Made by a program: the position numbers and the translations under genes. Positions 53,067-57,404 of a stretch of DNA of 64,000 nucleotides are shown here, one piece after another. The notes under the pieces were generated by a model. That model worked only from the letters and a program-made list of their open reading frames with translations. It did not search any database and was not told where the DNA came from. Position 1 is the first letter of the stretch; the number at the start of each line of letters is the position of its first letter. The stretch comes from Natrinema marinum (GTDB taxonomy: Archaea > Halobacteriota > Halobacteria > Halobacteriales > Natrialbaceae). Where the stretch lies: NCBI RefSeq assembly GCF_024296685.1, contig NZ_CP100763.1, forward strand, positions 3,596,001 to 3,660,000, given 5' to 3'.

Positions 53067-53861
53067 TCAGGCCTCGAGCGCCAGCCCGGCTTCGGCCAGC
53101 GCGTCGTCGGTCGAGAGGTCGTGGTGGACGACGCCGGCGACCGCTCGCGCGATGGCTTCCGGGTCGTCGTGCTGGAAGATCGACCGGCCCATCGAGACAC
53201 CGGCGCCGCCAGCGTCCATCACGCCGCGGACCATCTCGATGGTCTCGCGGTCGGTGCCCTTCGAGCCGCCGGCGATGACAACCGGCAGTCGGGTCGACTC
53301 GACGACGTGTTGGAAGCTGTCGGCGTCGCCGCTGTAGCCCGTTTTGACGATATCAGCGCCCAGTTCCTCGGCGAGTCGGACCGCGTGACCGAGCGCCTCG
53401 GGGTCCTCGGGGTCGACGCCGGGACCGCGAGCGTAGGCCATCGCCAGGACCGGCATCCCGAACCGTTCGGCTGTCTCGGTGACCTCGGAGAGCTGCGTGA
53501 GCTGGTCTGGCTCGTGGTCCGAGCCGACGTTGATGTGGAACGAGACGGCGTCGGCGCCGACCCGAATCGCCTCCTCGACGGTGCCGGTCACGCGCTTGTC
53601 GTTCTCGTCGGGGCCAATCGTCGTCGAGCCGTTGAGGTGGACGATGTAGCCCTTCCCGTTCTTGTTCTCGTGGACGCGGGGCGCGATCCCCTTCTGCGTG
53701 AGGACCGCGTCGGCCCCGCCGCTGGTCACGCCGTCGATGGTCGATTCGATGTCTTTCAGCCCCTGGACGGCACCCATCGTGATGCCGTGGTCCATTGGGA
53801 CGATCACGTACGATCCGTCTGTCCCGATTCGCTCGAGTCGTGCGTCGATTCCGGTGGTCAT
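53067..53861 (-). CDS. 2-amino-3,7-dideoxy-D-threo-hept-6-ulosonate synthase
   Basis: 264 aa class I aldolase-like enzyme (ADH synthase, AroA'). MTTGIDARLERIGTDGSYVIVPMDHGITMGAVQGLKDIESTIDGVTSGGADAVLTQKGIAPRV is the conserved N terminus; the Schiff-base Lys lies in ELGADIVKTGYSGDADSFQHVVESTRLPVVIAGGSKGTDRETIEMVRGVMDAGGAGVSMGRSIF. It makes the C7 aminosugar precursor that DHQ synthase II (46381) turns to 3-dehydroquinate. Directly before trpA on the same strand, 24 bases apart, so likely cotranscribed after trpCBA. Confidence 0.94.
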   Translation of the reverse strand: MTTGIDARLERIGTDGSYVIVPMDHGITMGAVQGLKDIESTIDGVTSGGADAVLTQKGIAPRVHENKNGKGYIVHLNGSTTIGPDENDKRVTGTVEEAIRVGADAVSFHINVGSDHEPDQLTQLSEVTETAERFGMPVLAMAYARGPGVDPEDPEALGHAVRLAEELGADIVKTGYSGDADSFQHVVESTRLPVVIAGGSKGTDRETIEMVRGVMDAGGAGVSMGRSIFQHDDPEAIARAVAGVVHHDLSTDDALAEAGLALEA

Positions 53862-53885
53862 TGCGGGAGTGTAGCAAGCTTGTCG

Positions 53886-54736
53886 TTATGGCTGTTCTGG
53901 TTCCGGTGCATCTTCCTCGCCCGCCCCGCGGCGCGCGCCGCGTTTGAGTTCGCGGGCCGTGGCCTCGAGTTCGTCGACCGCCGCGTCGGGCGTCTCGCTC
54001 GAGGCGATTATATCCACGAGCGCGCTGCCGACGATAACGCCGTCCGCGCCGGCCTCGACGATCTCGGCGGCATGGTCGCCCTCGCTGACGCCGAAACCGA
54101 CGGCCTTGGGCACGTCGTACTCCGACAGGCGCGCGAGGCTGTCGTGGGTCGCCGTCGAGACGTTCGCGCGCGCCCCCGTCGTTCCGAGGCGAGCCTGAAC
54201 GTAGGCGAAGCCCGAGACCTGCGACATGATGGCCTCGAGGCGTTCACCTTCGGTCGTCGGCGCGATGATGAAGACGAGGTCGAGCCCGTGGTCGTCGCAG
54301 GCCCGTCGCAGCGGGTCGGCCTCCTCGGCGGGTAAGTCGGGGACGATGATCCCCGCGAGGCCGGCCTCGGCGGCGCGTTCGACGAAGGGTCGAACGTCGG
54401 GCTCCGATCCATATTGGAGAATCATGTTGTAATACGTCATCACCAGCAGCGGCGCCTCGGTCTCGAGGTCGTCGACCAGTTCGAAGAATCCCTGAGGGGT
54501 CGTTCCGGCCTCGAGCGCGCGGTTGATCGCCGCCTGAATCGTCGGCCCCTCGGCGATCGGTTCCGAGAAGGGGAGGCCGAGTTCGATCAGGTCCGAGCCG
54601 CCGCGGTCGAGGGCCTCGACGTAGGCTTTCGTGTCCTCGAGCGAGCGGTCGCCCGCCGTGATGTAGGTGATCAGCGCGGGGTGGTTCTCGCGGATGGCAG
54701 CCTCGACGTCGCTGTCGTACGACTCTGAGCCATCGG

Positions 54737-54740
<4 letters not shown>
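53886..54740 (-). CDS. trpA: Tryptophan synthase alpha subunit
   Basis: 284 aa. TrpA motifs: [59 protein letters not shown] (catalytic Glu in ELGLPFSE), [58 protein letters not shown], and [31 protein letters not shown]. It splits indole-3-glycerol phosphate. The ATG overlaps the trpB stop by four bases, giving coupled expression with trpB. The C-terminal 20 residues are charged, haloarchaeal. Confidence 0.96.
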
Positions 54741-55996
<1,256 letters not shown>

Positions 55997-56021
55997 GTCT
56001 GGATGTCTCCGTCGTGTTCGC

Positions 56022-56822
56022 TCATGTCTGCTCCGTCTCCCTCGCGTCGGTCGATTCCGCCCGCACGAGCCGACGCGTGTTCTCGGTCACGTCGCTGTCG
56101 CCCGCGCCGTGGTCCATGATGGCGCTGCCGACCAGCAAGGCGTCGGCACCCGCCGCGCGCATCCGTTGCACGTCGGCCGGCGACGAGATCCCGCTCTCGG
56201 CGATCAGCGTTACGTCGTCCGGTACCTCGGGAGCGACCGACTCGAAGGTTTCGAGGTCGACCTCGAGTTTCGCCAGATCGCGGTTGTTCACGCCGATGAT
56301 CTCCGCGCCTGCCTCGAGCGCCGTCTCGAGTTCACCGCGGTCGTGGACCTCCACGAGCGGCTGGAATCCGCGCTCGCGGGCCGCGGCGATCAGTCCCTCG
56401 AGATCGTCGACGAACCGGACGATCAGCAGTAGGAGGTCGGCTTCGATCACGTCCATCCCCGCTTCGTCGAGGACGAAGTCCTTTCGAAGGACGGGAACGT
56501 CGACGGCCTCGCGAACGCGGGCCAGCGCCTCGGGCGAGCCGCCGAAGTGAGTCGGCTCCGTGAGCACCGAGATCGCCGTCGCGCCGCCCGCGACCATCGC
56601 CTCGGCCAGTTCGACAGGATCGTCGGCCCGCGTCCCGTCGGCCGTCGGACTCGTCGGCTTTACCTCGGCGATCACCGGGACCCGTCCGTCGGCGTCCGCC
56701 GCCGCCAGTGCGTCGGGTAACGACCGCGCGTCCACGTCGACGACGCCGTCGCCGCCCGACCGCTCCCGCGCGGCCTCGAGTATCGATCGGACCGCGGGAG
56801 CGAGCTCCGTATCGGAGTTCAT
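56022..56822 (-). CDS. trpC: Indole-3-glycerol-phosphate synthase
   Basis: 266 aa TIM barrel. [91 protein letters not shown] contains the catalytic Lys/Glu of the [10 protein letters not shown] and LRKDFV strands, and [62 protein letters not shown] closes the barrel. First gene of the trpCBA (plus ADH synthase) operon. Its 5' region carries the TGTACA boxes described separately. Confidence 0.96.
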
Positions 56823-56825
56823 TAT

Positions 56826-56851
56826 TGTACATCGACGTACTCATATGTACA
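56826..56851 (-). promoter_or_regulatory. Three TGTACA-type boxes in the trpC promoter
   Basis: TGTACA (56826-56831), CGTACT (56836-56841) and TGTACA (56846-56851) share the GTAC core and are spaced exactly 10 bases apart, so all face the same side of the helix. They start four bases before the trpC ATG and the outer box overlaps the TATA-like CTTATGTACATA. Methanothermobacter TrpY represses trp genes through TGTACA-type TRP boxes, so a Trp-responsive repressor is the natural guess. Confidence 0.65.
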
Positions 56852-56933
56852 TAAGGCTTGCGTCATGGCGACACATGGGGCAGTCCGAGGACGGACCGGC
56901 GGCTATTCAAGCCCGGATCACTAACGCCAGCGT

Positions 56934-57404
56934 ATGGAGGACGTTACGGAGGCTGGGATCTATGCGCGGGAGTCACCGTACCTCGACCGGTACGTCCAGC
57001 TCGGTGCCGCCAGCGGGCGGATTCTGAGCGTTTCCTTCCCCGAGATCCCTGACGACGGCGCCGAGGACGACCACCCCGTCCTCGATCGGATCTTCGAGTA
57101 TCTCGACGGCCTCGAGCCCGTCGACTTCGACGACGTGCAGGTCGCGATGACCATGCCCACCGACCAGCGGGCCGTCCTCGAGCGTGTCCGCGAGATTCCC
57201 TACGGCGATCAGGTCACCGTCGAGACGCTCGCACGGATGACGTCCGGTCTCGACCACGAGGACGACGACGACATCATCCTCGTCCGCACCGCGCTCGACG
57301 AGAACCCGGCCCCGCTGCTGGTGCCGGACCACCGCGTGCGCGACGGCCCCAGCGCCGCGCCGCCGGACGTCGAACAGAAGTTGCGGTCGCTCGAGGGGCT
57401 GTAG
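56934..57404 (+). CDS. MGMT-family protein lacking the catalytic cysteine
   Basis: 156 aa. VREIPYGDQVTVETLARMTSGL and LVPDHRVRDGPSAAPPDVEQKLRSLEGL match the DNA-binding and active-site region of O6-alkylguanine transferases. The usual PCHR is PDHR here (Asp for Cys), so it cannot transfer alkyl groups in the normal way. It resembles alkyltransferase-like proteins that only bind damaged DNA, but those normally have Trp there; haloarchaeal members often have Asp. The start ATG is 112 bases from the divergent trpC start. Confidence 0.8.
   Translation: MEDVTEAGIYARESPYLDRYVQLGAASGRILSVSFPEIPDDGAEDDHPVLDRIFEYLDGLEPVDFDDVQVAMTMPTDQRAVLERVREIPYGDQVTVETLARMTSGLDHEDDDDIILVRTALDENPAPLLVPDHRVRDGPSAAPPDVEQKLRSLEGL

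Follow-up and report, generated by a model that had tools for sequence, protein, structure and literature searches.

Phased TGTACA-type boxes in the trpC promoter of Natrinema marinum, a probable operator for a haloarchaeal TrpY-type repressor

Three TGTACA-type boxes set 10 bp apart in the trpC promoter of Natrinema marinum form what is, with good probability, the operator of a haloarchaeal TrpY-type repressor. Judging from sequence comparisons, a candidate protein of the TrpY family (TrpY_fam), once loaded with tryptophan, would block initiation both here and at a second operon, trpDFEG. The proposal rests on features that were observed: boxes that are conserved and phased at 10 bp, a target set of two operons, and the presence and conservation of a TrpY_fam gene.

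The boxes were read in a window of 64,000 nucleotides, the whole stretch of DNA that was analysed (G000:C1:3596001-3660000). On the plus strand, TGTACA (56826-56831), CGTACT (56836-56841) and TGTACA (56846-56851) begin at 10-bp steps, and the nearest edge lies 4 bases before the trpC ATG (56822, minus strand), which confirmed the positions and spacing given by the initial annotation. On the coding (minus) strand the operator (56826-56851, -29 to -4 relative to the ATG) reads TGTACA-TATG-AGTACG-TCGA-TGTACA, and is partly palindromic, at 18/26 positions. Box 1 (TGTACA, 56846-56851, minus) overlaps the TATA element on its downstream side, within a BRE/TATA region (CGCAAGCCTTATGTA, 56848-56862, minus) approximately 27 bp upstream of the trpC ATG. 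It is followed by box 2 (AGTACG, 56836-56841, minus) and box 3 (TGTACA, 56826-56831, minus). The boxes thus run from the TATA element to -4, and therefore fill the space in the trpC promoter where TBP, TFB and polymerase assemble. From the distance between TATA and ATG, together with haloarchaeal promoter geometry, the trpC transcript is probably leaderless, and no Rfam match that would point to RNA-based control was found in the window. A TGAAC sequence at 56817-56821 (minus), in the same 10-bp register and lying over the ATG and codon 2, weakly suggests a possible fourth half-box. Codon 2 of trpC was AAC in 51/78 loci, a count inflated by the kinship of the loci, and its third base was C in 64/78 loci, against 39% C at the third positions of later codons.

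The box triple did not occur in 100 dinucleotide-preserving shuffles of the window. Two overlapping matches to at least 11/12 box bases were present in the window, at the trpC site, and none arose in 12 first-order Markov simulations. Across the 3.77-Mb genome, the trpC site was the sole match to the triple at up to 2 mismatches, and 3 mismatches added one place. A relaxed genome search for GTAC-N6-GTAC-N6-GTAC returned the trpC site and three unrelated places. One of these, at 696795, is in a GC-rich region and starts immediately beyond the edge of a lipoprotein-like ORF; it was regarded as a chance match.

Downstream of the boxes, all on the minus strand, lie trpC (indole-3-glycerol phosphate synthase, 56022-56822, NF041303), trpB (tryptophan synthase beta, 54737-55996, TIGR00263) and trpA (tryptophan synthase alpha, 53886-54740, TIGR00262). 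The cluster is closed by 2-amino-3,7-dideoxy-D-threo-hept-6-ulosonate synthase (53067-53861, TIGR01949), the first enzyme of the aromatic pathway. The tryptophan-biosynthetic enzymes (those at 53067-56822 and at locus L113) are poor in the amino acid that they make: their 2576 aa include 4 Trp, whereas the other proteins of the window average 9.3 per 1000. Divergent from trpC, a gene at 56934-57404 encodes a short protein with an O6-methylguanine methyltransferase DNA-binding domain (PF01035, with a weak match to TIGR00589). No regulator gene conserved beside trpCBA was found in the neighbourhoods of 80 loci.

A scan of the genome collection yielded 80 haloarchaeal trpC loci, and the promoter alignment comprised 53 Natrialbaceae-type sequences and 28 others (Haloarcula, Haloferax, Halorubrum, Halobellus, Halobacterium and more). 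Across these 81 trpC promoters, a block from -44 to -1 (56823-56866, minus) was conserved. Mean information was 1.70 bits per column in the Natrialbaceae-type sequences, against 0.15 in the region from -100 to -46, and 1.08 against 0.20 in the other families, where the block loosens to approximately CGCAAGCCTTATGTNCANATNNGTNCGTTAGTGNACA-N3-ATG. Beyond the BRE/TATA, the conserved units were GTNC repeats at 10-bp steps. Box 2 was represented by GTNC across haloarchaea, and box 3 by TGNACA in the other families. The initial annotation is corrected in this respect: the middle box in other families is GTNC and not GTAC.

The second operon, trpDFEG, is located at G000:C1:1810991, away from trpCBA in the same genome. 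Analysis of 48 haloarchaeal trpD loci gave a promoter pattern of approximately CTTAAGTNNATGTACNNATTTGTACATTACAA...GTACATTGGTG, with phased boxes at trpDFEG in most of the 48 genomes. Exact GTAC-GTAC spacings were 30 bp (24 times), 10 bp (23 times) and 20 bp (6 times); the other frequent spacings, 46 and 76 bp, arise from a GTAC located farther upstream. The element common to the trpC and trpD promoters was TGTACNNATNNGTNCRTTA. A search of haloarchaeal trp promoters for spaced GTAC boxes had been proposed as a check on the first reading, and such boxes were found at orthologous trpC genes and at this second trp operon. The trpD-type composite pattern produced 62 matches in 61/145 genomes of the order, and a reversed control pattern produced 5. 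Where the composite loci were read, 29/30 were at trpD, approximately 33 bp upstream. In scans of the genome itself, of 61 family genomes and of the 145 genomes of the order, trpC and trpD were the only recurring targets; other genomic composite matches showed no recurrence in related genomes and were set aside. Some haloarchaeal families (L094, L111, L130) arrange their trpD boxes differently. L111 and L130 display three exact GTAC boxes in 10-bp steps at trpD, to which L130 adds a TGCAC one step upstream.

The initial annotation had placed the regulator outside the window, and a strong candidate was indeed identified there, 661 kb from trpCBA. This is a 167-aa protein (G000:C1:2991398-2991898, minus; L187:1387-1890), found at E = 0.00105 when the genome was searched for ACT domains with a relaxed threshold, and missed at E ≤ 0.001. 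It matches NCBIfam NF053754, "TrpY family transcription regulator", with E = 3.8e-71 and 238.4 bits (cut-off 180) over residues 2-164 of 167. A C-terminal ACT domain (residues 96-129) was detected with PF13840 (E = 9e-5) and PF01842 (E = 3e-4), matches that are significant and under the Pfam curated cut-off. Pfam and PDB profile searches gave no match to a DNA-binding domain in the protein. Its N-terminal half (residues 1-70) was nearly invariant in 30 haloarchaeal orthologues, and from this conservation and the family name we infer a putative helix-turn-helix. TrpY_fam was present as a single copy in 54/59 sampled genomes of the order and in 44/44 of those of good quality, all 44 of which also have trpD. 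Residue 2 was Phe in 30/30 haloarchaeal TrpY_fam proteins and Trp in 60/60 non-haloarchaeal members (58 with ATG and 2 with GTG starts); the 30 haloarchaeal proteins contain no Trp residue at all. No conserved phased boxes were found in 30 promoters of the trpY-type gene itself, and a single GTAC near the start occurred in close relatives only. The gene is therefore not visibly autoregulated. Another ACT-domain protein (L137:1105-1680, minus), encoded directly before homoserine dehydrogenase, is probably an allosteric regulator of that enzyme; as a TrpY candidate it was rejected, since it matches no TrpY model.

Outside the order, TrpY_fam was found in 146/147 sampled genomes of the phylum, and trp-operon starts were read in 78 non-halobacterial genomes. 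In families f18, f23 and f36, phased GTAC boxes immediately precede the first trp gene, as they do in f19 (6/8), f25 (4/4), f28 (3/3), f29 (1/4), f32 (4/4), f33 (2/2) and f35 (3/3). In genus g65 of family f22 (L315, L317), the trp operon is headed by a trpB2-like gene, and the phased boxes precede that gene. Each of these boxed families, f22 included, carries TrpY_fam. Examples of the phased boxes outside haloarchaea are TGTACTAAGTTGTACAATTATGTACA and TGTACAATTATGTTCGCCGTTGTACA. Per-locus p values, relative to other windows of the same locus, were often 0.003-0.004; these are nominal values, uncorrected for the approximately 78 loci and for the choice of search range, which was widened once when estimated starts proved inaccurate. 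Relatives are non-independent, and the family tallies consequently describe a pattern and not a test. Negatives from f20 and f34 count little, as the operon start was poorly located and a trpB2-like gene precedes trpE; trpB2-headed operon starts may hide further boxes in these families. Two f26 genomes displayed no boxes, and of these one lacks TrpY_fam and the other has only a weak match to it.

No TGTACA boxes were found at the trp promoters of f21 (0/16) and f24 (0/2), though both families carry TrpY_fam. The putative DNA-binding half of their proteins reads IELVPTKIAEA.GVDRKVV, as opposed to IEIPHTQIAKE.GVDRRVVD, and in the tree they form a separate branch. The haloarchaeal TrpY_fam proteins group in a single clade (99/99), next to those of the methanogen-type families that carry boxes, though the joining branch is weak (89/35). 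As read from this tree, TrpY_fam is apparently vertically inherited. In f24 (L276, L277), and in no other family, the TrpY_fam gene and trpCDFEGBA are transcribed divergently, as in Methanothermobacter. There are no TGTACA boxes between trpY and trp in f24, and the operator may have changed. Because almost every genome of the phylum sample has TrpY_fam, its co-occurrence with the boxes is weak evidence alone.

We infer that the TrpY_fam protein binds the boxes, with tryptophan as its ligand, and that it represses transcription. The protein, with its putative N-terminal DNA-binding half and C-terminal ACT domain, would act as a dimer or higher oligomer on successive GTAC half-sites along one face of the helix. 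A dimer would occupy the half-site pair TGTAC-N6-GTACA, between the TATA box and the start site, and more dimers could join at 10-bp steps on the same face. Tryptophan held in the ACT domain would then cause TBP or the initiation complex to be occluded; when tryptophan is plentiful, trpCBA with its aromatic-pathway aldolase, and trpDFEG, would be switched off. The putative TrpY-type repressor that had been suggested for haloarchaea from the trpC boxes gains support, at the level of sequence, from the boxes in trp promoters and from the TrpY_fam candidate. In H. salinarum, the absence of aromatic amino acids induced all seven trp ORFs, with a 12.5-fold induction of the co-operonic aldolase (PMC4162585); these data agree with aromatic-amino-acid control. 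The native trpCBA promoter of Haloferax (H. volcanii) has been quoted as "not tightly regulated" (PMC13147458), and the control may be modest.

It seems unlikely that the boxes are instead the operator for a regulator of the Lrp/AsnC family, such as an orthologue of H. salinarum LrpA2/Trh1. Binding to phased sites is known for Lrp proteins, and the genome contains 10 matches to PF01037 (Lrp/AsnC). When aromatic amino acids were absent, H. salinarum lrpA2 was induced 14.9-fold, and LrpA2 is proposed as a regulator by the authors of that study (PMC4162585). However, nine of the ten Lrp-gene promoters were read and none showed phased GTAC boxes, although an Lrp protein without autoregulation would fit this too, and the boxes span methanogen families for which the common factor found was TrpY_fam. 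In Methanothermobacter, moreover, TrpY binds TRP boxes of the TGTACA type. We hold it to be comparably improbable that haloarchaeal TrpY_fam controls something else, as its Thermococcus homologue seems to, and that another factor binds the boxes. The T. kodakarensis homologue, TkTrpY, does not regulate its own trp operon (PMC6737238), and f21 and f24 keep TrpY_fam without TGTACA boxes. The DNA-binding half in those families has diverged, however, and lies on a separate branch, so that the operator could have changed along with it; in f24 the trpY gene is still divergent from trp.

There is less still to recommend the boxes as an activator site rather than a repressor site. Tar of Thermococcus does activate trp/aro operons from a palindrome (PMC6737238), but Tar sites are upstream of the BRE/TATA, whereas the boxes here lie between TATA and ATG, as would be expected for blocking TBP or polymerase. 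The conservation might, finally, reflect the core promoter only (BRE, TATA and start-site region) with no operator, and part of the block is indeed BRE/TATA (CGCAA..CTTATG). This we regard as very improbable: conservation carries on through -29 to -4 as 10-bp periodic GTNC units, these units are common to trpD, at other distances from the ATG, and to methanogen trp promoters, and the genome-wide pattern searches did not recurrently recover other promoters.

The proposed TrpY-type operator has its closest counterpart in Methanothermobacter. For the TrpY of that genus, work by Xie and Reeve in 2005 is said to have described a TGTACA consensus, TBP exclusion and a Trp at residue 2 (Trp-2). The trpC site resembles the TrpY/TRP-box system of Methanothermobacter thermautotrophicus in its TGTACA core, in its position over the trp TATA/start region, and in a TrpY_fam regulator with an ACT domain. 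In Methanothermobacter, trpY is divergent from trpEGCFBAD and shares its boxes, whereas the haloarchaeal gene is unlinked and lacks conserved boxes in its promoter. Haloarchaea differ further in that the targets are two separate operons, that the boxes keep a strict 10-bp register within a probably leaderless promoter, and in a protein with Phe-2 in place of the reported Trp-2 and without any Trp. The spacing of TGTAC-N6-GTACA resembles that of the half-sites in the bacterial TyrR box, TGTAAA-N6-TTTACA; that protein is unrelated and bacterial, and the likeness is one of sites only.

In the published account, Methanothermobacter TrpY represses through TRP boxes that lie between the trpY and trpE genes, and haloarchaeal TrpY homologues are mentioned, with their branch left functionally unassigned (PMC6737238). 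Tar (TK0271) of T. kodakarensis likewise uses a palindromic site at aromatic amino acid operons. Its TGGACA-N8-TGTCCA lies upstream of the BRE/TATA, and Tar is an activator and a distinct protein mainly in Thermococcales (PMC6737238); the trpC site differs from it in sequence and position. LrpA1 and LrpA2/Trh are, like the proposed repressor, regulators of haloarchaeal amino acid metabolism, but the Lrp/AsnC genes show no phased GTAC boxes at their own promoters here, and LrpA1 sites have been described differently (PMC2894021).

The literature searched contained no assigned regulator of haloarchaeal tryptophan synthesis, LrpA2 being merely suggested, and no haloarchaeal work on TrpY or TGTACA boxes was found in it. 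Tryptophan control in haloarchaea probably works as in Methanothermobacter. On balance we lean, by a little, towards a phylum-wide TrpY/TRP-box switch that predates the split between haloarchaea and methanogens and still runs tryptophan synthesis. The haloarchaeal variant would be unlinked and not visibly autoregulated, would have lost Trp-2, and would silence two operons through phased boxes in leaderless promoters; in f21 and f24 the operator and the DNA-binding half would have diverged together. The findings suggest that much of the phylum inherited TRP-box control from a common ancestor, and that it is not a speciality of Methanothermobacter. With one conserved candidate gene and two exact operators named, haloarchaeal tryptophan control becomes testable in Haloferax, and haloarchaeal genetics gains a candidate promoter that tryptophan may repress.
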